A program made the position numbers and the translations under genes. A stretch of DNA of 35,652 bases. It comes from Lentisphaerota bacterium. GTDB lineage: Bacteria; Verrucomicrobiota; Kiritimatiellia; PWTM01. Where the stretch lies: NCBI GenBank assembly GCA_016873715.1, contig VGWF01000040.1, positions 1-35,652 of the forward strand, given 5' to 3'. Position 1 is the first letter of the stretch. Every line of letters starts with the position of its first letter. Under the pieces are notes generated by a model. It did not search any database. It was not told the origin of the DNA and saw only the letters and a list, made by a program, of their open reading frames with translations. Shown here piece after piece: positions 7,956 to 33,128 of this stretch.

Positions 7956-10337
7956 ATGAAGATGGCCGCGCCGCTCGCCCTGGCACTGTCCTGCTGCACG
8001 TCCGTGTTCGTCCATCCGCCGCCGGCCTCCGCCGGACCGGCGGGGGAGGGGCCGCTGGTCGATGTCCCCATGACGGGGCTGAAGCTCGATGGCTTCTGGA
8101 GGCAGCAGGTCAAGCTGCTGACGGAGAAGTGGATCCCCCACTGCGTCCGACAGATGGAGGCGGGCGGCGAGGGGCAGGAGCTTCTGAACCTGATCGCGAC
8201 CGGCCGGGCGCTGCGCGGCGAGGAGCCGGGGCCCTACCGCGGGGCGCCCTGGAGCGACGCCTACATCTACAACACGATCGAGGCGATCAGCCTGGCCCTG
8301 GAGGTGTCCCCCGACGGCGATGCCGGGCTGGCCGCGGCGCAGGCGGCCCTTCGGGCGAAGGTGGAGGAGTGGATCCCCATCATTCTCGCGGCGCAGCAGG
8401 CGGACGGCTACATCCACTCGTTCCACGTGCTGAAGAAGAGGCCGCGGTTCACCGCCATCGGCGACCACGAATTCTACGTGATGGGCTACCTCCTGGAAAC
8501 GGGCATCGCGCACCACCGGATGACCGGCGGGAAGGACCGGCGCCTCTACGACGCGGCGCGCCGGTGCGCGGACCTCCTGTGCGAGACCTTCGGGCCCGCG
8601 CCGAAGCGCACCTGGAAGAACGGACATCCCGGGCTGGAGTACGCGCTGTGCCGCCTCGGCGAGTACGTGGACGGCGTCGAGGGCGCCGGACGCGGCGCCC
8701 GGTATGTCGCGCTCGCGCGCCACTTCCTCGACCACCAGCACACGATCGAGCCAAACCCCTACAACCAGTCGGACCGGCCCGCCGTCGAGATGTCCGATGC
8801 CGCCGGGCATGCCGTGCGCGCCACCTACTTCTACACGGCCATGACGGACATCGCCCTCCTGCAGAACGACGCCGCCTACCGCGCCGCCGCCGGCCGCCTG
8901 TGGGCCAGCGCCATCGACCGCAAGCACTACCTCACCGGAGGCGTGGGCGCCTCGCACAAGGGCGAGGCCTTCGCGGGCGACCACGAGCTTCCCAACCACG
9001 GATACTGCGAATCGTGCGCGGGCTGCGGGCTGAGCTTCTGGGCCGACCGCATGCACCGGCTTCACGCCGACGCCGCCTTCCGCGACGTCCAGGAGCGGGT
9101 GCTCTACAACAACCTGCTCGGCTCCATCGAGCGGACCGGCACCAACTTCTACTATCAGAATCCCCTGGCCTCCAAGCTGCCCCGCTACGCCTGGCACGGC
9201 TGCCCCTGCTGCGTCGGGAACATCCCGCGGGCCCTGATCGCGATCAAGGACCAGACCTACTCCGTCAACGCCGCGCGCGACACGCTGTACGTCAACCACT
9301 ACGTCGCCGGCGAGGGCGACGCGGGCCCGGTCGGCGGCGCGCCGCTCCGCATCGCGCAGTCAACCCGCTACCCGTGGGAGGGCGCGGTCGATCTCCGGCT
9401 GAATCCCGGCGCGCCGGCCGCCTTCACGCTGGCGCTGCGCATCCCGAACCGCACGGAGAGCAGGCTCTACCGGGCCGAGCCGGACCCGGGCCCCCGCTTC
9501 GCCCTGACGATCAACGGCGAAGCCCATCCGGCCGGGGTGCGGAACGGCTACGCGCTCGTGCGGCGGACCTGGAAGGCGGGCGACCGCGCGACGCTGGAAC
9601 TGCCGATGGACCCCCAGCGCGTGCGCTGCGACGAGCGGGTCGAGGCCAACCGCGGGCGCGTCGCGGTGCAGCGCGGCCCCGTCGTCTACAGCTTCGAGGA
9701 CGTCGACAACCGGAAGCCCGTGCGGTCGTCCGTTCTGGACAGGAGCGCGGGGCTGACGACGGTCTGGCGGGGCGACCTGCTGGGCGGCGTGATGGTCCTG
9801 GAGACCGGCGGCCTGACGGGCGTTCCCAACTACGCACGCCTGAACCGCGGCGGCGCGTCGCAGGTGTGGATGATCGAGGACCGGGAGAAGGCGGGCGTCG
9901 TGGACACACCCGCGACCCTGGCGGACCTGACGGTCTCCTTCGCCCGTCCGAACATGGACCCCTCATCCGCCAACGACGGCTGCGCCCCGGGCGAGGCCAA
10001 GGACCACGCGGACGGGCATTTCGACTTCTGGCCCCACCTGGGCACGGCGGAGTGGCTGCAGTACGACTTCGAACAGCCGACGCAGGTCCGGTCCTGCACG
10101 GTCTGGTGGTTCGACGACACCGGCCGCGGCGCCTGCCGCATCCCGGCCTCGTGGCGGCTGATGTACCGGACCGACGCCGGCGCGTGGGAGCCGGTCCGGG
10201 GCGCGAGCGGGTATCCCGTCGCCAAGGACAAGCCCTCCGATCTCTCGTTCGACGCCGTCACGACCCGGGCCCTGCGCCTCGAGGTCCAGCTCCAGAAGGG
10301 CGTCTCCGCCGGCGTGCACGAATGGTCGGTGCGGTGA
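7956..10337 (+). CDS. Secreted GH127 beta-L-arabinofuranosidase-like enzyme
   Basis: A 793-residue protein with a signal peptide (residues 1-26, containing CC at 12-13 that does not make a clear lipobox). Residues about 35-440 form the alpha/alpha-barrel of DUF1680/GH127. In the characterised Bifidobacterium enzyme a Zn ion is held by one Glu and three Cys, one of which is the nucleophile; here these map to E352 and C354 (YCESC) and C418-C419 (GCPCCVGN). C418 is the likely nucleophile. Beta domains follow, and the last 115 residues resemble an F5/8 type C or CBM32 sugar-binding domain ending in VHEWSVR. The expected role is release of beta-L-arabinofuranose from plant glycans. GAAGGAGA stands 8 nt before the ATG. 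It converges on the minus-strand gene with only 5 bp between. Confidence 0.88.
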   Translation: MKMAAPLALALSCCTSVFVHPPPASAGPAGEGPLVDVPMTGLKLDGFWRQQVKLLTEKWIPHCVRQMEAGGEGQELLNLIATGRALRGEEPGPYRGAPWSDAYIYNTIEAISLALEVSPDGDAGLAAAQAALRAKVEEWIPIILAAQQADGYIHSFHVLKKRPRFTAIGDHEFYVMGYLLETGIAHHRMTGGKDRRLYDAARRCADLLCETFGPAPKRTWKNGHPGLEYALCRLGEYVDGVEGAGRGARYVALARHFLDHQHTIEPNPYNQSDRPAVEMSDAAGHAVRATYFYTAMTDIALLQNDAAYRAAAGRLWASAIDRKHYLTGGVGASHKGEAFAGDHELPNHGYCESCAGCGLSFWADRMHRLHADAAFRDVQERVLYNNLLGSIERTGTNFYYQNPLASKLPRYAWHGCPCCVGNIPRALIAIKDQTYSVNAARDTLYVNHYVAGEGDAGPVGGAPLRIAQSTRYPWEGAVDLRLNPGAPAAFTLALRIPNRTESRLYRAEPDPGPRFALTINGEAHPAGVRNGYALVRRTWKAGDRATLELPMDPQRVRCDERVEANRGRVAVQRGPVVYSFEDVDNRKPVRSSVLDRSAGLTTVWRGDLLGGVMVLETGGLTGVPNYARLNRGGASQVWMIEDREKAGVVDTPATLADLTVSFARPNMDPSSANDGCAPGEAKDHADGHFDFWPHLGTAEWLQYDFEQPTQVRSCTVWWFDDTGRGACRIPASWRLMYRTDAGAWEPVRGASGYPVAKDKPSDLSFDAVTTRALRLEVQLQKGVSAGVHEWSVR

Positions 10338-15317: not shown

Positions 15318-15339
15318 CGTACTCATGCGAATACGAAAC
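15306..15339. promoter_or_regulatory. Candidate operator over the -10 box and start codon of the ArsR gene
   Basis: GTTTCGTA (15306-15313) and its exact reverse complement TACGAAAC (15332-15339) are 18 bp apart. TTTCGTAC also occurs as a direct repeat (15307-15314 and 15316-15323). A site of this shape over the core promoter is what an autorepressing ArsR-type dimer would use. Binding is inferred, not shown. Confidence 0.55.
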
Positions 15340-15675
15340 TTCGAGATCTTCGAGCAGCAGGCGAAGCTCTGCGCGATGATGGCCAGCGCGAAGCGGCTGG
15401 CGATCGTCGAGATCCTGAAGCGGGGCGAGGCGAGCGTCGGCGACATCGCGGCGGCGCTGGGCTGCACAATCAGCACGGCGAGCCAGCACCTTCGGCTGAT
15501 GCGCGACAAGCAGGTCGTCGTCGCGCGCAAGGACGCGCAGACCGTCTTCTACCGCCTCCGCAATCCCAAGGTCGTCCAGTGCTGCCACATGGTCCGCGAG
15601 CTTCTGCTGGAGAGCTTCGCGGCCGGCAGCAGGCTGGCGAAGGGCTTCGACCCCGACCGCCTGATCGAGGACTAG
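15325..15675 (+). CDS. ArsR-family transcriptional regulator of the sulfur/Hdr operon
   Basis: A 116-residue winged-helix protein. Residues 20-80 match ArsR: ASAKRLAIVEILKRGEASVGDIAAAL, then the recognition helix ISTASQHLRLMRDKQVV and the wing ARKDAQTVFYRL. Cysteines are C16, C47, C86 and C87. ArsR proteins that sense sulfane sulfur (SqrR, BigR, sHdrR) use a cysteine pair, but the positions here do not clearly match those, nor the arsenic CVC motif, so the signal is open. The gene is the first of nine in tight order and likely represses its own operon through the palindrome at 15306-15339. ATG 15325 has no Shine-Dalgarno site and lies 7 nt past the -10 box, consistent with a leaderless start. 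Confidence 0.88.
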   Translation: MRIRNFEIFEQQAKLCAMMASAKRLAIVEILKRGEASVGDIAAALGCTISTASQHLRLMRDKQVVVARKDAQTVFYRLRNPKVVQCCHMVRELLLESFAAGSRLAKGFDPDRLIED

Positions 15676-15705
15676 GCCGCAACCAACCAACCCGGGGACC
15701 CCGCC

Positions 15706-16260
15706 ATGAGCGATGCCAACGACACCCGCGACGAACTGATCAAGCAACTCCTCGCCCGCGTGGAGGCGCTGGAGGCGAAGGCGCCGAAGGACGCGCTGAC
15801 CCTGGGCGTCATGAGCGGCGACCTCGACTACACCATCGCCTCCTTCATCATCGCGCTCGGCGCCGCGGCCTACGACATGGAGGTGGACATGTTCTTCACC
15901 TTCTGGGCGACCGCCTCGCTGCGCGATCCGAAGAAGTCCGCGAAGAAGAACCTCCTCGACACGATGTTCGGCATGATGCTGCCGCGCGGCTCGAAGAAGC
16001 TCCCGCTCTCGAAGATGCAGATGATGGGCATGGGGCCGGTCATGATCCGCAACGTCATGAAGTTGCACGGTGCCAAGTCGCTGGAGGAGCTCATGAAGGA
16101 CGCGGCGGACTTCGGCGTCCGCATCCACGTCTGCACGATGTCCATGGACGTCATGGGCATCAAGAAGGAGGAGCTCATCGGCTACCCCCACATGGATTTC
16201 GTGGGCGTGGGCACCTTCGTCGACATGTTCTCGAAGTCGAAGCAGTGCTGGTTCATGTAG
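15706..16260 (+). CDS. DsrE-like (DsrE2-type) sulfur-carrier protein
   Basis: A 184-residue protein of the DsrE/DsrF/DrsE-like superfamily. An N-terminal helix (LIKQLLARVEALEAK) precedes the domain, which begins TLGVMSGDLDYTIASFIIALGAAA. The region FGVRIHVCTMSMDVMGIKKEEL carries the family's conserved cysteine (C143) that can hold a persulfide; C181 in the tail QCWFM is a second candidate. DsrE-type proteins pass sulfane sulfur to or from TusA, whose gene follows 43 bp later. The hydrophobic helix near 44-56 and the methionine-rich stretch 103-118 are typical of the DsrE2 group, some of which associate with the membrane. GGGGA precedes the ATG. Confidence 0.85.
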   Translation: MSDANDTRDELIKQLLARVEALEAKAPKDALTLGVMSGDLDYTIASFIIALGAAAYDMEVDMFFTFWATASLRDPKKSAKKNLLDTMFGMMLPRGSKKLPLSKMQMMGMGPVMIRNVMKLHGAKSLEELMKDAADFGVRIHVCTMSMDVMGIKKEELIGYPHMDFVGVGTFVDMFSKSKQCWFM

Positions 16261-16303
16261 GACGGGTCCGGACCCCCGCGACAACACGGAAGGAGCGACA
16301 GCC

Positions 16304-16558
16304 ATGACCAAGGAAGAACTCGAGGCCCTGACGGTGGCGAAGCAGGTGGATGCGCGCGGCACGGCGTGCCCCGGCCCGCTGCTCGAGGCGAAGCGTGCGA
16401 TCGCGGCCTGCCCGGTCGGCGGCGTGATGGAGGTCCTCTCGTCGGACGAGGGCACCAAGGAGGACGTCTCCCGCTGGTGCGGCAAGATGCAGCACGCGTA
16501 CCTCGGCGACATCGAGGCCGACGGTTGCTGGCGCGTGTTCATGCGCCGGACGAAGTGA
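16304..16558 (+). CDS. tusA: TusA-family sulfurtransferase
   Basis: An 84-residue TusA-like protein. The signature DARGTACPGPLLEAKRAI gives the catalytic cysteine C22 in the CPxP motif, which carries a persulfide in characterised members. Two further cysteines are present (C36, C59), plus C75. Length matches single-domain TusA. AAGGAG stands 7-8 nt before the ATG. Only one base separates its stop from the next gene, so it is in the same transcript as DsrE and the Hdr proteins. As in sulfur oxidisers with sHdr clusters, it probably delivers sulfur to the Hdr-like complex rather than serving tRNA thiolation; this is inference from neighbours. Confidence 0.9.
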   Translation: MTKEELEALTVAKQVDARGTACPGPLLEAKRAIAACPVGGVMEVLSSDEGTKEDVSRWCGKMQHAYLGDIEADGCWRVFMRRTK

Positions 16559-16559
16559 C

Positions 16560-16973
16560 ATGAGCGGCGGCGCCCCCCCGGGCCCGGAGAAGCGGATCCT
16601 GGTCTTCTCGACCAACAGCATCTCCGACCCCGGCATCGACCTGGCGGGCAGCGCGCACCTGCACTACTCCACGAACGTGCAGGTGATCCCGCTGCCGTGC
16701 TCCAGCGGCGTGCGCCCCTCGTGGGTCGCGCACGCGCTGGAGAAGGGGTTCGACGGCGTCTTCATCGCCGCCTGCGGGGGGGATTGCGCCTATCTCTCCG
16801 ACTGCACCGACCGCACGGGCCGCGTCATCCGGCAGACGCAGGACCTCCTGAAGGCGCGGGGGCTGAACCCGAAGCGGCTGAAGATGTCCGGCCTCTGCTC
16901 GGTGTGCGCGGACAACTTCGTGAACCACATGGCGAACTTCAGGAAGGAGCTGGCCAAACTTGACCCCTCCTGA
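16560..16973 (+). CDS. MvhD/FlpD-like hydrogenase iron-sulfur subunit with altered cysteine set
   Basis: A 137-residue protein of the MvhD/FlpD family. MvhD carries a [2Fe-2S] cluster and links a hydrogenase or other donor to HdrA. The conserved middle is clear: VQVIPLPCSSGVRPSWVAHALEKG and GVFIAACGGDCAYL. Cysteines are C47, C72, C76, C82, C113 and C116. The usual N-terminal cysteine motif (CNWCSY-like) is replaced by STNSIS at residues 17-22, while two extra cysteines sit in GLCSVCADNF near the end, so the cluster may be bound differently. The ATG is one base past the tusA stop; its own end overlaps the next gene by 14 bp. Confidence 0.85.
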   Translation: MSGGAPPGPEKRILVFSTNSISDPGIDLAGSAHLHYSTNVQVIPLPCSSGVRPSWVAHALEKGFDGVFIAACGGDCAYLSDCTDRTGRVIRQTQDLLKARGLNPKRLKMSGLCSVCADNFVNHMANFRKELAKLDPS

Positions 16974-19692
16974 CCCGGCCCGGGAGCTCGATCACGACGT
17001 GCTGGTCGTGGGTGCCGGCACGGCCGGCATGGAGGCCGCGAACTCGCTCGGCGACATGGGCTACCGCGTCCTGCTCGTCGAGAAGAAGCCGAGCGTCGGG
17101 GGCCGGACGATCCTGCTGAGCAAGGTCTTCCCGACCCTCGACTGCGCGAGCTGCATCGCGACGCCGAGGATGGCCGCGACCGCGCACCATCCCAACGTGA
17201 CGCTGATGGTGAACAGCGAGGTCGACGGCGTCACGCGCGCCGGCAACGGCACCTTCCGCGCCAGCGTCCGCCGCAGGGCGACGTCCGTCGACCCCGACGC
17301 CTGCACCGGGTGCGGGCAGTGCGCCGAGGCCTGCACGGTGCCGATGGTGGACGAGTACAACTACGACCTCGTCGCCCGGCGCGCCGCGCACATCCCGTTT
17401 CCCCAGGCCGTGCCGAAGAAGGCGGTCATCAGCCGCAGCGGCTGCGCACCGTGTCTCCACACGTGCCCGGCGGGCGTGAAGCCCAGCGGCTACGTCTCGC
17501 TCGTGCGTGCGGGGAAGATCGACGAGGCCTTCCGCCTGCACCTGGAGGACGCGCCGCTGGTCGGCAGCCTGGCGCGGGCCTGCTACGCGCCCTGCGAGGG
17601 CGAGTGCACGCGCTGCGACCTCGAGGGCGCCGTCCACATCCGCGCGATCAAGCGCTTCATGGCCGACCGCTACTACGCCACCCACCCCGAGCCCGAGTAC
17701 GGTCCGCCGGAGACGCGGCTCGAGACGCGCATCGCGATCGTCGGGTCCGGCCCGGCCGGGCTCTCGGCCGCCTTCCACCTCGCGAAGCAGGGCCACCGTG
17801 TCACGGTCTTCGAGGCGGAGCCGCAGGCCGGCGGCATGCTGCGCCACGGGATGCCGGCTTACCGCATGCCGCACGACGTGCTGGACCGCGACATCCGGAA
17901 CATCACGGCGCTCGGCGTCGAGATCCGCACCGGGACGCGCGTGGAGTCGGTCGCGTCGCTGAAGGCGCAGGGATTCGCCGCGGTTTTCGTCGGGGTCGGC
18001 AACCAGGTCCCGAAGGTGATCCCGCTGCAGGGACGCGACCTGGCGAACGTCACCGACTGCATGCGGTTCCTGAAGGACTCGAAGGACGGCGGCGAGATGC
18101 CGGACCTGCGCGGGAAGCACGTCGTCGTCCTCGGCGGCGGCAACGTTGCGCTGGACGTCGCGCGCTCGTCGGTCCGCCTCGCCACGGCGAGCACGACGAT
18201 CCTCTGCCTCGAGGACCGCGCCCGCATGCCGGCGCACGGCTGGGAGGTGCAGGAGGCCGAGGAGGAGGGCGTGCGCCTGCTGACCTCGGCCTCGGCGAAG
18301 CGCCTGCTGACCAACGCCGCGGGCGAGCCGATGCTCGAGTACCGCGCCGTCGCGACGATCGATTTCACGCCCGAGGGCCGGATGACCGGCTTCACGGTCG
18401 CGGAGGGCACCGGGCAGCCGATCCGCGCGGACGTCGTGATCCTCGCCGTGGGCCTCGGCCCGAGCACCGCGCCGTTCGCCGGCGAGCTGGAACTGACGCC
18501 GCAGAAGACGATCCGCACCGATCCCGGGACGCTGCAGACCTCCGACCCGGTCGTGTTCGCCGGCGGCGACGCGGTGCTCGGCCCCTCGATCGTCACCGAG
18601 GCGATGGGCCAGGGCCGGCGCGCGGCGTACCACATCGACCGGATGCTCCGGGGCACGACCGGCATCGTCCCGTTCTGGGACCAGCCCGCGACGGTGCGGA
18701 AGGACTCCGTCCTGCAGGGCTGCGCCTGTTCGCACAAGCCGGCCTCGGCGCCGCGCCGCCGGCCGCCGCGCGAGCGCATCCAGAGCTTCGAGACCTACGA
18801 GGACGCCTTCACCGAGGCCGAGGCGCGCGACGCCGCGAACCGCTGCCTCGGATGCGGCGAGTGCTCGCAGTGCCGGCAGTGCGTGAAGGTGTGCCCGGCG
18901 GACTGCATCGACTTCTCGATGCGCGACGAGACGCTCGACGTGCGGGTCGGCGCGGTGATCCTCGCCACCGGCTACGGGATCCTCGACCCCGGCCGCAAGG
19001 AGCTGATGGGCTACGGGCGGTACCCGAACGTGATCTCGGGGCCGCAGATGGACCGGCTGCTCGCGCCGACGCGGCCCTACAACGCGGTGCTGCGGCCGTC
19101 CGACGGCAAGGTGCCGGACAACATCGGCATCGTGCTGTGCAACGGCTCGCGCGACCACACGGTGGACAACCCGCTCTGCTGCCGGATCGGCTGCATGTAC
19201 TCCGCGAAGCACGCGCAGCTGATCATGGGCGCGCTGCCGATGGCGGACATCACGATCTACACGATCGACGCCCGCGCCTTCGGCAAGGGCTACGACGAGT
19301 TCTACGAGCAGTCGAGGGCGATGGGCGTGCAGTACGTCCGCGGCAAGGTCGCCCGCGTCGAGGAACTCGAGAACGGCAACCTGAAGGTCCACTACGAGAA
19401 CATCGCCGGCGGCGGGACGCAGACGATGGAGCACGACCTGCTCGTGCTGACGGTGGGGCTGCTGCCGAATCCGGACGCGCTCGCGCTGATGCGCGGCGAG
19501 ACGCCGGCGGCGGACGACTGGGCGTACGTGCGCGAGCCGGACCCGGTCGCGGAACCGGGGCGCACGAGCCTCGACGGGGTCTTCGCGGCCGGCACGGTGG
19601 TCGGCGCGCGGGACATCCCGGACACGGTGCTGCATGCGGCCGCGGCGGCGGCGCAGGCGGCGGCCTACATCGAGGAAGCGAGGGCCGGGTGA
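16960..19692 (+). CDS. HdrA-like protein with an inserted GltD/NfnB-type NAD(P)H module
   Basis: A 910-residue iron-sulfur flavoprotein. Order: FAD-binding GAGTAG (18-23); the HdrA motif LDCASCIATPRM (about 60-71); a ferredoxin-type C115-x2-C118-x2-C121-x3-C125; then a complete GltD-like unit with its own cysteines (C162, C165, C169, and C208, C212, C216, C219), FAD loop GSGPAG (262-267) and NAD(P)-binding GGGNVA (392-397); then a dense cluster CLGCGECSQCRQCVKVCPADC (about 627-647); last the HdrA C-terminal half with CCRIGCMYSAKHA. So the GltD module splits an HdrA. HdrA is the bifurcating flavin subunit in methanogens and GltD-like NfnB oxidises NADPH, so the fusion probably feeds NAD(P)H electrons into the complex. 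Start is TTG 16960 with AAGGAG 10 nt upstream. Confidence 0.88.
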   Translation: MTPPDPARELDHDVLVVGAGTAGMEAANSLGDMGYRVLLVEKKPSVGGRTILLSKVFPTLDCASCIATPRMAATAHHPNVTLMVNSEVDGVTRAGNGTFRASVRRRATSVDPDACTGCGQCAEACTVPMVDEYNYDLVARRAAHIPFPQAVPKKAVISRSGCAPCLHTCPAGVKPSGYVSLVRAGKIDEAFRLHLEDAPLVGSLARACYAPCEGECTRCDLEGAVHIRAIKRFMADRYYATHPEPEYGPPETRLETRIAIVGSGPAGLSAAFHLAKQGHRVTVFEAEPQAGGMLRHGMPAYRMPHDVLDRDIRNITALGVEIRTGTRVESVASLKAQGFAAVFVGVGNQVPKVIPLQGRDLANVTDCMRFLKDSKDGGEMPDLRGKHVVVLGGGNVALDVARSSVRLATASTTILCLEDRARMPAHGWEVQEAEEEGVRLLTSASAKRLLTNAAGEPMLEYRAVATIDFTPEGRMTGFTVAEGTGQPIRADVVILAVGLGPSTAPFAGELELTPQKTIRTDPGTLQTSDPVVFAGGDAVLGPSIVTEAMGQGRRAAYHIDRMLRGTTGIVPFWDQPATVRKDSVLQGCACSHKPASAPRRRPPRERIQSFETYEDAFTEAEARDAANRCLGCGECSQCRQCVKVCPADCIDFSMRDETLDVRVGAVILATGYGILDPGRKELMGYGRYPNVISGPQMDRLLAPTRPYNAVLRPSDGKVPDNIGIVLCNGSRDHTVDNPLCCRIGCMYSAKHAQLIMGALPMADITIYTIDARAFGKGYDEFYEQSRAMGVQYVRGKVARVEELENGNLKVHYENIAGGGTQTMEHDLLVLTVGLLPNPDALALMRGETPAADDWAYVREPDPVAEPGRTSLDGVFAAGTVVGARDIPDTVLHAAAAAAQAAAYIEEARAG

Positions 19693-21443
19693 TGGCGGCC
19701 CACCGGCGCATCGGGGTGTTCGTCTGCCACTGCGGCGGCAACATCTCCGATCACGTGGACGTGAAGTCCGTCGCCGACGCGGTGGCCTCGGAGCCGGGCG
19801 TGGTCGTGTCGAAGACGCACACGTTCACCTGCTCCGACGCGGCGCAGCAGGAGATGATCGCCGACATCCGCAACGAGAAGCTCGACGGCCTCGTCATCGC
19901 CTCCTGTTCGCCGAAGCTGCACCTGTTCACGTTCCGCGGCATGGCGGAGCGGGCGGGGATCAACCCCTACCAGTACGTCCACGTCAACCTGCGCGAGCAG
20001 TGCTCGTGGGCGCACACGGACGATCCCGGCGGTGCGACGCGCAAGGGCGCGGCGCTGGTCCGCGCGGGGATCGCGAAGGCGGCGCTGTCGCGCTCGCTGC
20101 ACGCGCTGCGCGTGAAGACGGCGCCGTGCGTGCTGGTGATCGGCGCGGGGATCTCCGGCCTGCGCGCGGCGCTGGCGCTGGCGGATCTCGGCCTCGAGGT
20201 GCACCTCGCGGAGCAGGCGGACGAGCCCGGCGGCGCGGTGCGGCGCTGGGGGCCGCTGGCGCCGGACGGCCAGTCCGGCCGCGAGGTGGTCGGCGGCCTG
20301 CTGGCGCGCGTCCGCGCCCACCCGCGCGTGACGCTGCACACGGCGACCGGGCTGGTCGCGAAGAGCGGCAGCATCGGCGACTTCCATCTGACGCTGCGGT
20401 CCGCGGGCGGCGCCGAGACGGCGCTGCACGCCGGCGCGATCGTCGTCGCGACCGGGTTCGACTCCTACGAGCCGAAGCCGGGCGAGTTCGGCCGCGGGCT
20501 GGAGGGCGTCGTGACGCTGCCCGAGTTCCGCGACGGCGCGGACCTGCAGGGCGGCACGCTGACGTTCCGCAACCGCACCGTGAAGTCGGTCGCGTTCATC
20601 TACTGCGTCGGCAGCCGGCAGTCGGAGAGCGAGACCTGCCCGTCGCCGAACGCCTGGTGTTCGCGGTTCTGCTGCACGGCGGCGACGCACCTCGCGGCGC
20701 AGATCGCGGCGCAGGAGGCGCGCGGCGGGGCGGCGGTGACGCAGGTCCATCTCTACCGCGACATCCGCACCTACGGGCACAACGAACGGGTGTACGAGGA
20801 GGCCCGCCGCGGCGGCGCGCTCTTCCTGCGCTACGGCGACGGGACCCCGCCGACGGTCGAAAGGGCGGATCCGGGCCTGCTGGTGAAGGTGAAGGACGAG
20901 CTGACCGGCGACGCGGAGATCGAGATCCCCGCGGACCTGGTCGTGCTGGTGACGGGCATGGTGCCGCGGTCCAATCCCGGGCTGATGGACGTGCTGAAGC
21001 TCCCGGTCAGCAAGGACGGCTTCCTCGGCGAGATCCACATCAAGCTGCGTCCGGTGGAGACGGTGATCGACGGCGTCTTCATCGCCGGCGCGGCGCAGAG
21101 TCCGAAGTCGATGGCGGAGAGCGTCGGCTCGGCCCTGGCGGCGGTGGCGAAGGCCGGCGCGCTGCTGAAGAAGGGCTACGTCGACCTCGAACCCCTGATC
21201 GCGCGCGTCGATGCGGACAGGTGCCTCTGGTGCGACGAGTGCCTGAAGGCGTGCCCCTACGGCGCGATCGAGAAGGTCCCGTGCGGCGGGAAGGAGATCG
21301 CGCAGGTGGTGGCGTCGCAGTGCAAGGGCGAGGGCGCGTGCGTGCCGGTGTGCCCGCACGGCGCGCTCGACATCGAGGGCTACACCGACGCGCAGATCAC
21401 GGCGATGATCGACGCGGGGATCCGCGGGGAGGCCGTGCGATGA
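19692..21443 (+). CDS. hdrA: HdrA-like iron-sulfur flavoprotein
   Basis: A 583-residue HdrA homologue. The N-terminal domain RRIGVFVCHCGGNI has C12 and C14, with C47, C72 and C104 further on, as in HdrA. The FAD loop GAGISG is at 151-156. The second half has YCVGSRQ and CSRFCCTAATHLA, then two ferredoxin motifs, CLWCDECLKACPYGAI and CKGEGACVPVCPHGAL. The segment after the FAD-binding GG lacks the DCxxC insert that the first HdrA-like protein has. Its stop and start overlap the neighbours (TGATG at 19690, ATGA at 21440), so expression is tightly coupled. It presumably docks HdrB/HdrC and the flavoprotein fusion into one complex. Confidence 0.88.
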   Translation: MAAHRRIGVFVCHCGGNISDHVDVKSVADAVASEPGVVVSKTHTFTCSDAAQQEMIADIRNEKLDGLVIASCSPKLHLFTFRGMAERAGINPYQYVHVNLREQCSWAHTDDPGGATRKGAALVRAGIAKAALSRSLHALRVKTAPCVLVIGAGISGLRAALALADLGLEVHLAEQADEPGGAVRRWGPLAPDGQSGREVVGGLLARVRAHPRVTLHTATGLVAKSGSIGDFHLTLRSAGGAETALHAGAIVVATGFDSYEPKPGEFGRGLEGVVTLPEFRDGADLQGGTLTFRNRTVKSVAFIYCVGSRQSESETCPSPNAWCSRFCCTAATHLAAQIAAQEARGGAAVTQVHLYRDIRTYGHNERVYEEARRGGALFLRYGDGTPPTVERADPGLLVKVKDELTGDAEIEIPADLVVLVTGMVPRSNPGLMDVLKLPVSKDGFLGEIHIKLRPVETVIDGVFIAGAAQSPKSMAESVGSALAAVAKAGALLKKGYVDLEPLIARVDADRCLWCDECLKACPYGAIEKVPCGGKEIAQVVASQCKGEGACVPVCPHGALDIEGYTDAQITAMIDAGIRGEAVR

Positions 21444-21727
21444 GCGCGCCCCGTCCCCCGATGCGCGCCCGGGCCGAGATCCTGCGCGACGAGATGGTGC
21501 AGAAGGACCGCATCGCGGCGGCGTTGCGCGACGGCCCGAAGACCATCCCCGCGCTGGCGGAGGCGCTCGGCGCGCCGTCGCACGAGGTCGTCTGCTGGGT
21601 GATGGCGATGCGCCGCTACGGCCAGGTCGAGGAGAAGGGCAAGGCCGACGGCGACGGCTACTTCGCGTACGAACTGAAGGACGCCGGCGGCACGGCCGGC
21701 GCGCCCGCGAAAGGCGGATCCGCATGA
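21440..21727 (+). CDS. Small winged-helix-like protein conserved in Hdr operons
   Basis: A 95-residue protein, residues 14-75 predicted as a helix-turn-helix with wing: ILRDEMVQKDRIAAALRDG, KTIPALAEALGAPSHEVVCWVMAMRRYG, then VEEKGKADGDGYFAYEL. I recall similar small proteins beside hdr genes in sulfate- or sulfur-reducing bacteria, but know no tested function. It could be a DNA-binding regulator or, given a place between HdrA and HdrC with four-base overlaps at both ends, a structural or assembly factor of the complex. The frame reading far upstream to 19634 overlaps hdrA and is not coding. Confidence 0.8.
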   Translation: MSAPRPPMRARAEILRDEMVQKDRIAAALRDGPKTIPALAEALGAPSHEVVCWVMAMRRYGQVEEKGKADGDGYFAYELKDAGGTAGAPAKGGSA

Positions 21728-22026
21728 GGATGTCGACGCGACTGGCCGCGGAGGCGAAGCGCGCGCCGGGGTTCGACGCGCAGGCGTGCATGAGCTGCGG
21801 CGTCTGCACGGCGGTCTGCCCGATGGGCTACGAGGTGCTGCCGCGCTCGCTCTTCCGGATGGTGCTGCTCGGGCTCGAGGAGGGCGTGCGCGAGCACCTG
21901 CCGAAGATCTACTCCTGCCTGCTGTGCCGCATGTGCGAGGCCAACTGTCCCGCCGGGGTGCGGATCGCGGAGAACGTCCGCAGCCTCCGGACCCTGGTCA
22001 ACCGCCGGGAATTCAAGCTCACCTGA
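21724..22026 (+). CDS. hdrC: HdrC-like [4Fe-4S] protein
   Basis: A 100-residue protein with two full [4Fe-4S] motifs: C22-x2-C25-x2-C28-x3-C32 (CMSCGVCTAVCP) and C65-x2-C68-x2-C71-x3-C75 (CLLCRMCEANCP). The spacing and the helical linker between them match HdrC, which carries electrons between HdrA and the active-site subunit HdrB. It is at the short end of the HdrC range. Start overlaps the previous gene (ATGA at 21724). Its stop is followed by GAGG, which serves as ribosome site for the HdrB gene. Confidence 0.88.
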   Translation: MRMSTRLAAEAKRAPGFDAQACMSCGVCTAVCPMGYEVLPRSLFRMVLLGLEEGVREHLPKIYSCLLCRMCEANCPAGVRIAENVRSLRTLVNRREFKLT

Positions 22027-22035
22027 GGCACGGGC

Positions 22036-23046
22036 ATGCCGCTACCCACCGGAGTCATCCTCGGAATCCTGGCCGACAACCTGTCGCGCCGCGGCAGCGT
22101 GCTCCCGCTCTCCGCCGCCGCGACGACGCGCTGGGCGAAGGGCCTCGACCTGCCGCGCGGCGGGGCGACGGTGCTCTACACCGGCCACATGTACCAGCTC
22201 ATCCCGACCATCGAGGCGATGGCCGGCCGGATGGCCGCGCTGGAGAACTCGCCGCTGACGAAATGGTTCGGGCTCGGCCGGATCGCGAACCGCTTCGTGA
22301 ACCTGTCGTTCTTCCTGGGCCTGCTGGCGTCGCGGAGCCGGCAGCGCGACTACGACCGCATGCTCCGCAGCATCGCGGGGCTGCTGCGGAAGGCGGGCGT
22401 GCCGTTCGGCTACCTCTACGGCGACGAGATGTACTCCGGGGCGCTGGTGTACGACGAGGGGATGGACGAGACCTTCGGCCGCCACGCGCGCAAGGTCGCG
22501 GAGGTCTTCCGCCGTCACGGCGTGAGGGAGGTCATCACGGTCGACCCCCACACGACGAACATGCTGCGCGAGGTCTATCCGAAGTTCGTGCCGGGCTTCG
22601 ACGTGAGGGTCCGAAGCTACCTCGAGGTCCTCGCCGAGCGCGCCCCGGCCGTCGCGCGCCCGGCGTCGGGCGAGTTGGTGATCCACGATTCCTGCGTCTA
22701 CGCGCGCTACGAGAAGATCGTCGACCCGCCCCGCGCCCTGCTGCGGCGCGCGGGCGTCACGGTGCGCGAGCCGGCGCTCGCCGGCGCGGCGACGCACTGC
22801 TGCGGGGGGCCGATCGAGGCGCTCTTCCCGGCCGAGGCGCACCGGATCTCGACGAACCGGATCGGGCAGCTTCGCGAGGCCGGGTCGCGCATTGCGACGA
22901 TGTGTCCGATCTGCCTCGTGAACCTCCGCAAGGCCGCGGCCGGGACGGCGGAGGTGGCGGACCTCGCCGAGGTGCTGGCGGCGGCGTACGGCGGGGAAGG
23001 GGAAGGGGAGCGGGAAGACTCCAAACGGCAAGGACGTGGGACGTGA
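22036..23046 (+). CDS. hdrB: HdrB-like CCG-domain protein with one intact cluster site
   Basis: A 336-residue protein with two CCG-type domains. The second has the full set: IHDSCVYARY (C220), THCCGGPIE (C255, C256) and MCPICLVNL (C290, C293), the ligands of the non-cubane [4Fe-4S] cluster that HdrB uses for disulfide cleavage. The first keeps the fold pattern but has lost the ligands: YTGHMYQLIP, YGDEMYSGALVYDEG, VDPHTTNM. So it should hold one catalytic cluster. It lacks a clear membrane segment and is probably cytoplasmic. The final 20 residues are low-complexity (GEGEGEREDSKRQGRGT). GAGG lies 8 nt before the ATG, overlapping the hdrC stop. It is the last gene of the operon. Confidence 0.85.
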   Translation: MPLPTGVILGILADNLSRRGSVLPLSAAATTRWAKGLDLPRGGATVLYTGHMYQLIPTIEAMAGRMAALENSPLTKWFGLGRIANRFVNLSFFLGLLASRSRQRDYDRMLRSIAGLLRKAGVPFGYLYGDEMYSGALVYDEGMDETFGRHARKVAEVFRRHGVREVITVDPHTTNMLREVYPKFVPGFDVRVRSYLEVLAERAPAVARPASGELVIHDSCVYARYEKIVDPPRALLRRAGVTVREPALAGAATHCCGGPIEALFPAEAHRISTNRIGQLREAGSRIATMCPICLVNLRKAAAGTAEVADLAEVLAAAYGGEGEGEREDSKRQGRGT

Positions 23047-23250: not shown

Positions 23251-24573
23251 ATGAACAAGACCATCGTCATCGCCGGACTCGCCGCCGCGGGCGCGCTCGG
23301 CTGGGCCGCGGCGTCGCGGGCCACGAACGGCATGGACCTCGAGGGCTACGGCCCGATCGCGCAGGGTCAGGGCGGGGCCTCCCTCGCGAGCGACAACGGA
23401 ACGGCCGCGGTGATCAACAACCCGGCGACGCTCTCGCTGATGCCCGATGGGGGCCGCCGCGTCGATGTGGCGTTCGGCCTTCTCGGTCCGGACGTCGAGG
23501 CCTCGGTGCCCGGGATGCCGGTGGCGCATTCGTCCGGCGACGCGTACTTCATGCCGGCGTTCGGCTACGCGAAACGCAGCGGCGACTTCACCTACGGCAT
23601 CGGGGTCTTCGGGCAGGGCGGCATGGGCACGCGCTACGCGGCCTCGTCCTTCCTTGCGCTGAACTCCGGCGAGCCGGTGATGTCGGAAGTGTCGGTCGGC
23701 CGCCTGATCGCGCCGGTCTCCTACAACGTCCTCGACAACCTGGCGCTGGCGGGAACGCTCGATTTCCTGTGGGCGGGCATGGACCTTCGGATGGCGATGA
23801 CCGCGCCGCAGGCGATGGGCATGCTCTCCGGCATGCCGACGCTTGCGATGCCGGCCCTCGGCCCCGGCAACTACCTGCGCGTCGATTTCGCGGACGGATC
23901 GCAGTTCACCGGCGACGCGGCCGGCTACGGCGTCAGCGGGAAGTTCGGCCTCCTCTACCAGATCACGCCGAAGATCCGCGTGGGCGCGATGTACCACGCG
24001 GAGCCCGACCTCGGCGACCTGAAGAGCGAGGACGCGACCCTGTCGTTCGGCGACATGGCGACCGGAACCCGGATGGGCGCGGTCGAGGGGGAGGTCAGGG
24101 TCCACGACTTCCACTGGCCCGCGATGTATGGCGGCGGCCTGGCCGTCGACGCGACGGACCGCCTGACGCTCTCGGTGGACGTGAAGCGGATCCTGTGGGA
24201 GGACGTCATGCGCAGCATGGACATGACGTTCACCGCGGACGGCGGGGGGTCGGTGTCGTTCTCCCTGCCGCAGGGGTGGGAGGACCAGACGGTGTGGTGC
24301 GTCGGCGCCGCCCTCAAGGCGACCGACGCCCTGATCGTGCGCGCCGGCTACAACTTCGGCGAGAACCCGGTGCCGGAGGCCAACGTCAATCCGCTGTTCC
24401 CCGCGATCGTGGAGCACCACATCACGGCCGGCGCGAGCTACGCGCTCGACGACCAGAACTCGGTTCACCTGTCGGTCGTCTACGTTCCGGAGACGGACGT
24501 GACCGCCGCCAGCGGCGTCACCTCGACGCACAGCCAGTTCAACGCGCAGGTCATGTACAGCTACACGTTCTGA
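23251..24573 (+). CDS. FadL/OmpP1-family outer-membrane channel
   Basis: A 440-residue protein with a signal peptide (MNKTIVIAGLAAAGALGWAAASRA) and then NGMDLEGYGPIAQGQGGASLASDNGTAAVINNPA, the N-terminal plug signature of the FadL/TodX family. The rest alternates short amphipathic strands as in a 14-strand barrel (GKFGLLYQITPKIRVGAMYHAE, LTLSVDVKRILWEDV) and ends in an aromatic residue (YSYTF), the usual signal for outer-membrane insertion. Members pass hydrophobic molecules such as fatty acids or aromatics. The start at ATG 23251 has GGGGA just upstream. It follows the Hdr operon by 204 bp with its own likely promoter, so a functional tie to the operon is possible but unproven. A strong hairpin follows. 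Confidence 0.88.
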   Translation: MNKTIVIAGLAAAGALGWAAASRATNGMDLEGYGPIAQGQGGASLASDNGTAAVINNPATLSLMPDGGRRVDVAFGLLGPDVEASVPGMPVAHSSGDAYFMPAFGYAKRSGDFTYGIGVFGQGGMGTRYAASSFLALNSGEPVMSEVSVGRLIAPVSYNVLDNLALAGTLDFLWAGMDLRMAMTAPQAMGMLSGMPTLAMPALGPGNYLRVDFADGSQFTGDAAGYGVSGKFGLLYQITPKIRVGAMYHAEPDLGDLKSEDATLSFGDMATGTRMGAVEGEVRVHDFHWPAMYGGGLAVDATDRLTLSVDVKRILWEDVMRSMDMTFTADGGGSVSFSLPQGWEDQTVWCVGAALKATDALIVRAGYNFGENPVPEANVNPLFPAIVEHHITAGASYALDDQNSVHLSVVYVPETDVTAASGVTSTHSQFNAQVMYSYTF

Positions 24574-24740: not shown

Positions 24741-24770
24741 TTGTACTCGGACATGCGGCCGGAGTATGGT
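24741..24770 (+). promoter_or_regulatory. Candidate promoter of the hybrid kinase gene
   Basis: TTGTAC (24741-24746), an 18-bp spacer, TATGGT (24765-24770). The predicted transcript begins about 24777, leaving at most a few bases before ATG 24781. The in-frame ATG at 24766 would lie inside the -10 box. Confidence 0.4.
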
Positions 24771-24780
24771 GAGCGGCATC

Positions 24781-27700
24781 ATGACGCCGGTGCTGATCCT
24801 CTACGTTGCGCTCCTGCTGGCCTCGGCGGCGCTCTCCGCATGGGGGGCGGTCGCGGCCCTCCGCCGGCACGCCGCGCACGTGTCCGCCTGGCTGGCGGCA
24901 TGCCTCGGCGCCGCGGCGGCGTGGTCGGTTCTGGCGGCGCTGGAAGCGCTGGCCCCGTCGCCCCCCTTGAAGATCCTGGTCTCGAAGGTCCACTACGCCG
25001 CCATCGCCTCGGTGGCCCCCTGCTGGTTGCTGTTCGGCCTGGCGTACGCAGGTCGTGCCGGGCTGCTGGCGGGGCTGCGGTCGGTCGCCATGTGGGTTCC
25101 CTCGGTCGCTGTCCTGCTGCTGGTCTGGACCAACGAATGGCACGGACTGGTCTGGCGGTCGGTCGGCGATCCGCCGGGTGGGCACGGGCCGATGATCTAC
25201 CACCACGGGCCGGCCGTGGCGGCGTTTGCGGCATGGTCCTACCTGGTCGTGATCGTTGGAACCGCCCTGGTTCTGCGCACGGTCTGGCGGGCGCCGCCGC
25301 GCCATCGCCGGTACGCGGTGCCCGTGGGGGTGGCCGCGCTGCTGCCGATCGTTCCCAACCTGGGCTATCTCAGCGGAAGCCTGCCGATGCAGGGACTGGA
25401 TCTCACCCCGGTCGGCTTCGGGATATCGGGGGCGCTTCTGGTCTGGGCCCTTGTGCACCAGCGCTTCCTCACGGTGCCGTCGGTGGCGTTGACGGCTCTC
25501 TTCGCCGGCATGCGTGAAGGGGTCCTGGTGGTGACGTCGGACAGCCTCGTCGCCGCGGCGAATCCCGCCGCGCGGCGCATGCTGGGGCTGCCCGACGATC
25601 CCGCCGGCGAGCCGGCCGGGGACCTGCTTCGCGACCTCCCCGCGCTGCTCGACGCGCTTCGGGAGGGGCGGACCGCCGAACTCACGGTGGAGCGGGAGGG
25701 CGCGCGGCGGCGGATCGAGGTGTCGGTCGAAGACCTGCGCGGCTCCCACGCGGGCTTCACGGGCCGGCTGGCCACTCTGCGCGACGTCACCGAGGCCCGG
25801 GAGGCCGCCGAGGCCGTCACACGGCGGGAGGCCATCCTGAACGCCGTGCGGGAGATCGCCACCCGCTGGCTCCGCAGCTCGAACTGGCGGGATGGAATCC
25901 AGACCTCGCTGCTCGATCTCGGGGTCGCGGCGGATGCGTCCCGCGCCTACATCTTCCAGAACCAGCCGGGCGTCACCGGCCGCGTCTGCATCTCGCAGCT
26001 CTACGAATGGTGCGCCCCGGGCATCACGCCCCAGATCGACAACCCGCGCCTGCAGCGGACGACGTTCCGCGATCTGGGGCTTGCCCGCGTGGAAGCCGTG
26101 CTCTCCGCCGGGGGGGTCTTCTCCGCGACGGTCAGCGTGCTCCAGCCCGAGGAGAGGATGGAGCTCGAATCGGAGGGCATCCGCGCCATCCTGCTGGTCC
26201 CCATCCTGGCCTCGGGGCATGGGTGGGGCTTCATCGGTCTGGACGAGTGCCGGAGCGACCGTGCGTGGACCGCTGCGGAGACGGAAGCCCTCCGGACCGC
26301 GGCCGCGGCCTTTGGCGCCGCCATCGAGCGCGAGGACATGGAGGCCCAGCGGCGCGACAGCATCGAACGGCTTCGCTTCATCATGGACAACATCCCGGGG
26401 ATCCTGTGGGCGGTCGACCGGGATCTCAACGTCGCCGTGCTCTCCGGCAGCGCGGTGTCGGCCGCCGGCATCGGGTCCGCGCCGAAGGACCCCGTCCCGC
26501 TGGCCGGGAGCGACGGTCGGGCACCCTTCGGCCCGGATTCCGTCGACCGGCACCGCCGCGTCCTCGAGGGCGAGTCGTTCGACTACACCCTCGATTTCCG
26601 CGGCCGCCAGTTCGACTGTCACCTGCGCCCGCTGTGCGGCCCCCGTGGCGACATCCAGGGCGCCATCGGGATCGCCCTCGATGTGACCGAGCGCACCCGG
26701 GCCGAGGAGGCCGTACGCCGGCTCACCGACCGCCTCCTGCTCGCCACCCAGGCGTCCGGCGTCGGCATCTGGGAACTGGATGCGCGCACGGGAGCCATGA
26801 TCTGGGACGACCGCATGCGGGAGATCTACGGCTGGGCCGCTCCGACCCCGGTCACCCAGGACGTCTGGTATGCCCTGATCCATCCGGAGGACCGGGCGCG
26901 GGTCCGCAGCGAACGGAGCGGAGCCTTCGCCGAGGGGTGCAAGCTCCACCTGGAGTTCCGGATCGTCCGGCCGGACGGCCAGACCCGCCTGATCCGCAGC
27001 CAAGGGGTCCTGGAGCGCGACGCCGCGGGACAGGTCGTCCGAGCGGTCGGCATGAACCTCGACATCACCGACATCCGGCGGATCGAACGGGAGCAGGCGA
27101 AGCTGGCGATGGCCGTCGGGCAGTCCGCCGAGGTCACGGTCATCACCGATCCGAACGGCCGGATCGAATACGTGAACCCCGCGTTCGAGCGCACGACGGG
27201 CTACCGGCGCGACGAGGTTCTCGGCCGCACGCCGGCGATCCTCAAGAGCGGGCGGCAGGACGGCGACTTCTACGCGGGCCTCTGGTCGACCATCCGTGCG
27301 GGCCGGACATGGACCGGGCATTTCGTGAACCGGCGCAAGGACGGCACGCTCTACGAGGCGGATGCGACCGTTTCGCCCGTCGTGGATGCCGCGGGCACGA
27401 TCGAGAACTTCGTGGCCGAGATGCGGGATGTCACCCAGGAGCGGATGCTCGAGGAGCAGCTCCGGCAGGCCCAGAAGATGGAGAGCATCGGGCGCCTCGC
27501 CGGGGGCATCGCCCACGATTTCAACAACAACCTTCAGACCATCCTCGGGTTCTGCGAGCTGCTTCTGCTCCACCGGCCGGAGAGCGACCCGGAACGCGCC
27601 GACATCCTCGAGGTGCAGAAGGCGGCCCAGCACGCCCGCGGGGTGACGTCCCAGCTGCTCGCCTTCGGCCGGCGGCAGCTCATCCAGCCGAAGGATCTCG

Positions 27701-28611
27701 ACCTCAACGCCATGATCGGCGAACAGCACGAACTGCTGACGCGGACCCTCGGGGAGGACATCCGGCTCGAACTCCGCCTCGGGGCCGACATCGGGCGCGC
27801 ACGGGCCGACCCCGCCCAGATCCAGCAGGTTCTCCTCAACCTCGTCATCAACGCGCGCGACGCCATGCCCTCCGGCGGGCGCCTTCTCGTTGCCACGTCG
27901 CGTCGCGAGTTCGAGGCGGACGACGAACAGCCGGGTTCGGACATCCGCCGGGGCCGCTACGTGTGCCTTTCGGTGTGCGACACGGGAACCGGCATGTCGC
28001 CCGAGACGGTCGCCCACCTTTTCGAGCCGTTCTTCACCACGAAGGACACCGGAAAGGGCACGGGGCTCGGCCTCGCCGTTGTCCACGGCATCGTCAAGCA
28101 GCACGAGGGCTGGATCCACGTCTACACGGAGTCCGGCCAGGGCAGCGAATTCAAAATCTTCCTGCCCGCCGTCGATCGGCCCAAGGGCCGGGACACCGCG
28201 GTCGAGGCCCCCGGCGGCGCCGCGCCGCGGGGCCGGGGCGAACGCATCCTGCTCGTCGAGGATGAGCCCGGTCCCCGGCTCGTCGCCGTCCGGGTGCTCC
28301 GCGATCACGGCTACCACGTCATGGAGGCGGGCAACGCGGCGGACGCGCGGCGCGGCTTCCAGGAGTCGCCTCCGGTCGACCTCGTGATCTCCGACGTGGT
28401 GCTGCCCGACGGCAACGGCGTCGAACTGGTGCTGGCCTTCCGGGAGACCCGGCCCGGGCTGCCCGTCGTCATGATGAGCGGCTACGCCGACGAGCGTGCC
28501 CGCTGGCCCGAGATCCGGGACCGGCGTCTGCCGTTCCTGCTGAAGCCCTTCTCGGTCGCGGAACTCCTGGACGCCGTCGCCCGGACGCTGGCGGGGTCCG
28601 CGGCGGGCTGA
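24781..28611 (+). CDS. Membrane-bound hybrid sensor histidine kinase (7TM-PAS-GAF-PAS-HisKA-HATPase-REC)
   Basis: A 1276-residue sensor. Residues 1-225 hold about seven membrane segments of the histidine-kinase N-terminal 7TM type. Then come a PAS-like domain (about 235-340), a GAF-like domain (about 360-540), and three PAS domains (about 545-650, 655-770, 780-895), the last with [21 protein letters not shown]. The HisKA motif [17 protein letters not shown] gives phosphoacceptor H912; the ATPase has [10 protein letters not shown] (N1024), DTGTGM and [15 protein letters not shown]. The C-terminal receiver (about 1150-1276) has acceptor D1205 in [10 protein letters not shown] and the lysine in LLKPFS. 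No separate response regulator lies nearby, so the partner is unknown. The start is ATG 24781, preceded by GGTGAG; 24766 is an alternative. Confidence 0.9.

Positions 28612-31037: not shown

Positions 31038-33128
<2,091 letters not shown>

Follow-up and report, generated by a model that had tools for sequence, protein, structure and literature searches.

Nine consecutive genes on the forward strand of the window (the whole 35,652-nucleotide stretch analysed here) make up a genuine and strongly conserved operon, found in many bacterial phyla as well as some archaea, that joins TusA and DsrE sulfur carriers to an Hdr-type unit with a built-in NAD(P)H module. We posit, with about even confidence, that it encodes a soluble oxidoreductase acting between NAD(P)H and sulfane sulfur and supplied by TusA/DsrE, with a possible coupling to ferredoxin and a probably reductive direction in this organism. 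For anaerobes that lack recognised sulfur-respiration genes, the operon offers a candidate, open to testing, for sulfane-sulfur redox chemistry in the cytoplasm.

Gene content, conservation and host range

Upstream to downstream, the operon encodes an ArsR/SmtB-family regulator (15325–15675; HTH_5 3.6e-9, HTH_metalloreg 6.5e-22), a DsrE-type sulfurtransferase of the DrsE_2 family (15706–16260; PF13686 9.5e-44), the sulfur carrier TusA (16304–16558; PF01206 6e-20), the [2Fe-2S] electron-transfer subunit MvhD/FlpD (16560–16973; PF02662 3.7e-30), a type III HdrA recognised by PDB matches, with an inserted GltD/NfnL-like NAD(P)H-FAD domain (16960–19692), a second HdrA whose best PDB matches are methanogen HdrA (19692–21443; 1.4e-96), a small protein of 95 aa with a winged-helix AlphaFold2 model (21440–21727), HdrC with two [4Fe-4S] clusters (21724–22026; Fer4_17 1.7e-10, TIGR03290 7.9e-12), and an HdrB-like catalytic subunit bearing a single CCG site for a non-cubane cluster (22036–23046; PF02754 7e-10). 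All nine genes lie on the + strand, in the order that an earlier note had read from this DNA, and the tight spacing it described from TusA onward is equally evident, with gaps of +1, −14, −1, −4, −4 and +9 bp. The type III HdrA gene starts with TTG, and this start is uncertain, a later one being possible. The next gene on the same strand encodes a FadL/TodX-type outer-membrane protein (23251–24573; PF03349 2.6e-28), a homologue of which lies near the operon in five other Kiritimatiellales/Verrucomicrobia loci; the gene is possibly tied to the operon in Kiritimatiellales only.

Across genomes, the series tusA-mvhD-HdrA::GltD-hdrA-(winged helix)-hdrC-hdrB is whole in 49 of the 55 relatives with enough flanking (upstream) sequence to be counted, a fixed order that rules out chance neighbours and bears out the conserved association of HdrA/GltD, TusA, DsrE and the winged-helix gene that the earlier note had proposed to look for. 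TusA is present in all 49 complete loci and a DsrE-type gene lies nearby in 47 of them, each operon has one hdrB and one hdrC, and inter-family gene distances are correlated across loci (r 0.47–0.89). A mobile-element or plasmid module was ruled out by a plasmid search, in which the type III HdrA gave GltD-like matches only and the second HdrA a single match, an Ilyobacter HdrA. The hosts comprise Kiritimatiellales, Chloroflexota, sulfate-reducing Bacillota, Acidobacteriota, Zixibacteria and Thermoplasmata, and dsrA is present in half of the 30 carrier genomes tested, so the operon is not the speciality of an anaerobic glycan degrader that it had first appeared to be. Among those 30, dsrA was not found in the Kiritimatiellales carriers, and the source genome has no dsrA-class gene (two weak matches fell far below the cut-off); many carriers, the source genome included, are probably anaerobic fermenters. 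Hydrogenase genes are absent from the window, as noted earlier, and Fe-Fe and Ni-Fe hydrogenase genes lie on other contigs of the source genome.

The CPGP cysteine of TusA (C22) is invariant in 61 homologues and C143 of DsrE in 45, which, together with the presence of TusA in every complete locus, favours the proposed sulfane-sulfur oxidoreductase. Five MvhD cysteines (C47, C76, C82, C113 and C116) are invariant in 58 homologues, and this MvhD is the sole FlpD match in the source genome. Among 21 homologues of the ArsR-family regulator, C87 is kept in 19 and C16 in 13, while C47 and C86 are unconserved. About 20 loci have, close to the operon, an ArsR-family gene that keeps a conserved cysteine, and the ArsR-type regulators sHdrR and SoxR sense sulfane sulfur in Hyphomicrobium (PMC12423496). 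On these grounds the operon might serve sulfane-sulfur homeostasis instead of catabolism, with ArsR controlling the relief of persulfide or polysulfide stress. We regard this as improbable: a seven-gene, multi-cluster complex would be heavy machinery for detoxification, and C16 and C87 do not evidently correspond to the sensor pair of sHdrR/SoxR.

Two dissimilar HdrA paralogues and a single-CCG HdrB

In the type III HdrA, PDB 5odc_A aligns with residues 14–165 and 634–903, and NfnA, NfnI and GltD align with about residues 160–565, so that HdrA matches flank the GltD/Nfn match and the GltD part (approximately residues 158–565) is set into the ferredoxin region, the architecture that defines type III HdrA. 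The "HdrA-GltD fusion" of the earlier note is therefore a single protein, as claimed, but with GltD inside HdrA rather than joined end to end. Its K750 and D698 correspond to K409 and E356 of 5odc HdrA, and the K409 equivalent is K, and the E356 equivalent D or E, in 60 of 60 type III sequences. The second HdrA, composed of an N-terminal Fe-S domain, an FAD domain that lacks the ferredoxin insertion and a C-terminal ferredoxin domain, has H333 at the K409 position (56 H, 10 F and 4 Y; n = 70) and R280 at the E356 position. The type III HdrA thus keeps both of these residues, which in a bifurcating HdrA lie near the FAD, and the second HdrA has lost them, a division that favours the proposed function.

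The FAD and nucleotide motifs of the GltD domain are intact. The end of its second strand reads YRR (NADPH-like) in 38 of 61 homologues and xLE (NADH-like, the version in the window) in 22, and this split alongside intact motifs suggests selection for a functional dinucleotide site; by that site, the window protein leans towards NADH. The adjoining nucleotide motif is of the GGGNVA type (GXGXXA) in 61 of 61 and never GXGXXG, which PMC12054007 takes as an NAD-preferring signature; this rule applied to the GGGNVA of the window would point to NADP, contrary to the xLE reading. Coupling to NAD(P)H is further supported by one locus (L089), in which the GltD part is absent and an unrelated NADH module, a NuoF-type NADH/FMN subunit (Complex1_51K 7e-45) with a HoxU-like protein, takes its place.

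HdrB contains only five cysteines (C220, C255, C256, C290 and C293), all invariant in 81 homologues. These form the C-terminal CCG motif alone, the N-terminal half having no cysteine, and the protein thus differs from the methanogen type with two CCG motifs; its model (pLDDT 89) has a fold resembling EtfD, LutA and HdrB. This one-CCG site with five invariant cysteines also favours the proposed oxidoreductase. In HdrC, eight cysteines are invariant in 80 homologues. The 95-aa protein had no match in Pfam or NCBIfam; an AlphaFold2 model (pLDDT 84), nearest in fold to HlyU, SqrR and SmtB, predicts a winged helix. In 48 of the 49 complete loci its gene separates hdrA from hdrC, and the product probably acts either in a structural or docking role within the complex or as a regulator. 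Homology to the Hyp protein of sHdr systems was rejected, as Hyp has 276–291 aa and gave no match.

Separation from sHdr, Qmo and other Hdr systems

The operon resembles sHdr (hdrC1B1A-hyp-hdrC2B2 with LbpA), which also combines TusA/DsrE carriers with Hdr subunits and in some cases has ArsR-type regulators. However, the operon has no C1/B1 pair, no Hyp and no LbpA, and it adds MvhD and the GltD domain. The full sHdr set (two HdrB, two HdrC, and Hyp between hdrA and hdrC2) was seen in seven bacterial loci (L157–L163), whereas queries with sHdrB1, sHdrB2 and sHyp matched nothing in any of 80 operon loci, nor in the window. True LbpA was absent from the same 80 loci and from the window, in keeping with the earlier remark that the window has no lipoate-binding-protein genes, and the same LbpA queries matched all eight control loci. 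Phylogeny agrees with gene content: in an HdrA tree built without ANME-1/Bathyarchaeota type III sequences and without row L120, the second HdrA of the operon (100/99), type III HdrA (100/100), sHdrA (100/98) and QmoAB (100/99) form separate clades, so neither paralogue falls inside sHdrA or Qmo. The sHdr variant was ruled out by marker absence and this tree, and Qmo by the tree. The presence of Hdr and TusA/DsrE genes in a genome does not, then, automatically mean sHdr sulfur oxidation.

An oxidative, sHdr-like role, in which sulfane sulfur on TusA would be oxidised towards sulfite without a lipoate-binding protein and electrons passed to NAD(P)+ via GltD, could nevertheless be read from the shared carriers, from one Thermoplasmata contig bearing both the operon and a true sHdr cluster with LbpA, and from weak GcvH-like domains downstream of the operon in five loci (L038, L066, L072, L083 and L095). 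We consider it unlikely, given the missing sHdr markers, the separate HdrA clades, the probably fermentative life of many carriers and the GcvH-like domains themselves, which by eye appear to have G at the LbpA lipoyl-lysine position. Far less probable still is an electron donor complex associated with Qmo or Dsr, of the QmoAB-HdrBC type that occurs in Gram-positive sulfate reducers (PMC10504309): the dsrA-bearing half of the carriers would suit it, but both HdrA paralogues fall outside QmoAB with full support and the Kiritimatiellales carriers and source genome are without dsrA.

HdrABC-MvhAGD, MetFV-HdrABC-MvhD and FlxABCD-HdrABC resemble the operon in having a soluble Hdr core whose HdrA is fed by MvhD or a NAD(H) module, but the operon has no hydrogenase, MetFV or Flx genes, carries its NAD(P)H site inside HdrA, and pairs a one-CCG HdrB with sulfur carriers. 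A single non-cubane cluster site is shared with DsrK, where it is thought to act on a protein-bound disulfide or trisulfide, and with other single-CCG proteins; unlike DsrK, the operon HdrB is not membrane-associated by context, has no DsrMJOP or DsrC beside it, and has EtfD, LutA and HdrB as its nearest solved folds.

Type III HdrA itself has been named in ANME-1 and Bathyarchaeota (HdrA9/A10/A11; HdrA-GltD or HdrA-NfnB), the ANME-1 GltD-bearing forms being HdrA9-11 (PMC9012536), with NAD(P)H use proposed (PMC12054007, PMC9012536) and two separate archaeal GltD insertion events inferred (PMC12054007). The likeness is one of architecture, with GltD/NfnB in the ferredoxin region. Those proteins adjoin another hdrA or mvhADG, with TusA/DsrE unmentioned in the accessible parts of both papers, whereas the type III HdrA of the operon, in bacteria and Thermoplasmata, is fixed together with TusA, a K409-less second HdrA, the winged helix and a one-CCG HdrB. 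A protein hitherto found mainly in ANME-1/Bathyarchaeota without a clear partner thereby gains a conserved sulfur-carrier context. The earlier suggestion of an undescribed device holds for the operon, of which a literature search, mostly outside subscription journals and preprints, found no published description, but not for GltD-bearing HdrA.

Proposed sulfane-sulfur chemistry

We infer that the gene products form a cytoplasmic flavin/iron-sulfur complex of Hdr type that would exchange electrons between NAD(P)H and TusA-bound sulfane sulfur, with DsrE loading or unloading TusA. NAD(P)H would bind at the GltD domain within the type III HdrA, and its electrons would travel via Fe-S clusters to the HdrA flavin. 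From there the second HdrA and then HdrC would relay them to HdrB, at whose single non-cubane cluster a protein persulfide may be converted to thiol and sulfide, unless the reaction runs the other way. Because it keeps the K409-type lysine, the type III HdrA may allow flavin-based bi- or confurcation with ferredoxin, which could dock on the C-terminal ferredoxin domain of the second HdrA or by MvhD. With potentials of −320 mV for NADH, about −270 for S0/HS- and −420 to −500 for ferredoxin, NADH-driven bifurcation onto persulfide would be poorly favoured, and linear transfer or confurcation fits better. In the source fermenter, the complex would likely run reductively, as a redox sink turning polysulfide-derived persulfide into sulfide. 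Only tentatively do we extend this to an undescribed, cross-domain, TusA-dependent enzyme, ferredoxin-coupled by its bifurcating type III HdrA, that would provide an energy-linked S0/polysulfide sink for anaerobes without a known sulfur or polysulfide reductase.

Two isolates, Pontiella sulfatireligans (L024) and G397, carry the operon. P. sulfatireligans and P. desulfatans reduce elemental sulfur without recognised sulfur-respiration genes (PMC7356697), and we count this phenotype of an operon carrier, as well as the dsrA found in half of the carriers, for the proposed function; sulfur reduction by Kiritimatiella glycovorans (PMC7356697), where presence of the operon is not established, is counted against it. 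As proof, the phenotype is weakened by a second candidate in P. sulfatireligans, a CoA-disulfide-reductase/rhodanese/TusA/DsrE fusion protein that occurs in 19 of 29 Pontiellaceae (HdrB in 11 of 29) and in the source genome and that could reduce sulfur alone, which counts against our reading. Sulfur reduction in these cells might accordingly be the work of this fusion protein, to whose NAD(P)H-dependent type a polysulfide reductase of Thermotoga maritima is related (PMC9431562), and the Hdr operon would then do something else, such as balancing NAD(P)H and ferredoxin with another disulfide. We think this division of labour rather unlikely, as it leaves unexplained why TusA/DsrE are locked in with the Hdr genes across domains, including in loci with no such fusion protein seen nearby.

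A compact operon with an interrupted HdrA

The nine genes proposed in the earlier note (ArsR, DsrE, TusA, MvhD, an HdrA carrying GltD, a second HdrA, a winged-helix protein, HdrC and HdrB) do lie on one strand at 15325-23046, and the tight packing from TusA onward (intergenic distances −14 to +9 bp) was likewise confirmed. ArsR, DsrE (DrsE_2), TusA, FlpD/MvhD, HdrA, HdrC and the CCG-domain HdrB were all matched by Pfam and NCBIfam; the 95-aa protein had no family match in either, and its predicted model is a winged helix resembling SqrR, HlyU and SmtB. Both parts of the supposed HdrA-GltD fusion are present, but the GltD/NfnL-like domain interrupts HdrA (type III HdrA): residues 14-165 and 634-903 align with a solved methanogen HdrA (structure-database match), and residues about 160-565 with Nfn/GltD structures. 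Across 45-81 homologues per family, TusA C22 (in CPGP), DsrE C143, five MvhD cysteines and eight HdrC cysteines were invariant or nearly so, as were five in HdrB that make up one CCG site. HdrB has no cysteine in its N-terminal half, where a YTGxxYQxxP motif is retained, and its predicted model (pLDDT 89) resembles EtfD, LutA and HdrB.

Distribution and separation from sHdr and Qmo

Full-length HdrB relatives are rare near the window's lineage, with none in the eight genomes of its own family and three, besides the window's genome, among 388 genomes of the phylum. A species-genome scan found 229 HdrB relatives, and the best 80 of these, used for locus comparisons, come from Kiritimatiellales, Chloroflexota, Acidobacteriota, Zixibacteria, Actinomycetota, Bacteroidales, Rhodoferax, Thermoplasmata and others, including Peptococcaceae-type sulfate reducers (Desulfotruncus, Desulfoscipio, Desulfallas and Desulfofundulus). 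The seven core genes, tusA through hdrB, form a complete single run, with median spacings of −4 to +10 bp, in 49 of the 55 loci whose sequence extends 6.5 kb or more upstream of hdrB, and a DsrE-type gene precedes or follows the operon in 47 of those 49, these tblastn-based gene counts being lower bounds. Pairwise distances of subunit families correlate (r 0.89 for the two HdrA proteins, 0.47 for TusA versus HdrC), a pattern predicted for an operon that moves as one block, with host relatedness also contributing. Evolutionarily, the window's HdrA proteins are nearest in the tree to those of an Acidimicrobiia bin from Zodletone (L033), closer than to Kiritimatiellales, which fits either transfer or a misbinned contig.

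The operon is a system separate from sHdr and Qmo, in line with the earlier note. Eight sHdr clusters, seven from bacteria and one from an archaeon (L156-L163), supplied marker proteins as queries: LbpA (lipoate-binding protein), sHyp, sHdrB1, sHdrB2, lipoyl ligase and LipS. These gave zero matches in the window; among the 80 loci with the operon, the sole matches were weak GcvH-like ones to LbpA at five, where the domain has G at the lipoyl-lysine position when aligned by eye. A maximum-likelihood tree resolved four clades: operon HdrA (100/99), type III HdrA (100/100), sHdrA (100/98) and QmoAB (100/99). Moreover, one Thermoplasmata genome (G432; L063, L155, L156) carries the operon and an LbpA-bearing sHdr cluster on one contig, about 20 kb apart. 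Absent markers, separate clades and this co-existence together establish the separation. Since dsrA exceeded the cut-off in 15 of 30 carrier genomes, and in neither the window's genome nor other Kiritimatiellales tested, the operon neither needs nor excludes dsrAB.

HdrA with a GltD/NfnB insert is already known (PMC9012536 and PMC12054007), as is Hdr together with TusA/DsrE, in sHdr (PMC6067878). A literature search covering few subscription journals and no preprints returned no description of type III HdrA combined with TusA/DsrE, nor of the one-CCG HdrB, the second HdrA lacking K409, the winged-helix subunit or the bacterial and archaeal spread. As a side observation, Fer2/Fer4 proteins with a GcvH-like domain, seemingly without the lipoyl lysine, lie near the operon at L038, L066, L072, L083 and L095.

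Redox partners and putative function

There is good evidence that NAD(P)H is a partner of the complex, since one NAD(P)H module has been swapped for an unrelated one: at L089 the GltD part is absent and NuoF-like and HoxU-like proteins precede an HdrA half. At L061 a HoxU-like gene separates the two pieces of a split type III protein. L065 is likewise a variant operon (type III HdrA split or GltD part missing) with a HoxU-like gene. In Rossmann sites YRR suggests NADPH and xLE NADH; the GltD nucleotide site reads YRR in 38 of 61 cases and xLE in 22, the window's included. This reading conflicts with the GXGXXG rule of PMC12054007.

That paper reports K409 and E356 as important for the flavin of HdrA. 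Their equivalents in type III HdrA are K750 and D698 (K in 60/60). The second HdrA, which is without the inserted ferredoxin domain, has H333 and R280 there, its K409 position holding H in 56, F in 10 and Y in 4 of 70 sequences; the canonical HdrA and Qmo reference rows of the alignment retain K. One of the two flavins is thus consistent with bifurcation, and the other is not. By textbook potentials, NADH-driven ferredoxin reduction with a persulfide acceptor is unfavorable except at very low sulfide, so bifurcation is no more likely than linear electron transfer or confurcation.

The favored reading, held at about even odds, is that the operon product is an oxidoreductase between NAD(P)H and sulfane sulfur, supplied by TusA/DsrE; in this host it would probably run reductively, and it may be coupled to ferredoxin. 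The two Pontiella species described in PMC7356697 both reduce elemental sulfur while fermenting, and that paper reports finding no sulfur-respiration genes in them; the operon occurs in P. sulfatireligans (L024) and in G397, possibly P. desulfatans, a correlation across two related strains. It is weakened because Kiritimatiella glycovorans also reduces sulfur (PMC7356697) and may lack the operon, and because a single-chain protein of about 820 aa, uniting CoA-disulfide-reductase, rhodanese, TusA and DsrE, is commoner in Pontiellaceae (19/29, versus 11/29 for the operon's HdrB) and also occurs in the window's genome, away from the operon (G000 C104, L171). That protein adjoins the operon in several Pontiellaceae (L025, L026, L027 and L105).

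Other genes nearby

By the operon lies a FadL/TodX-type outer-membrane protein gene (23251-24573), also found beside it at five Kiritimatiellales/Verrucomicrobia loci (L019, L025, L026, L027 and L029); speculatively, its product might serve as a passage for a hydrophobic compound, S8 for instance. Just downstream, a large 7TM hybrid histidine kinase (24766-28608) combines PAS, GAF, HATPase and receiver domains, and response-regulator-like genes occur near the operon at 17 loci besides the window. A GH127 beta-L-arabinofuranosidase-like gene (7956-10334) is in keeping with the reading of the host as a glycan degrader. On the reverse strand are an H+-translocating pyrophosphatase (31041-33128; PF03030, 5e-271) and a ThiF-family gene (4030-4713).
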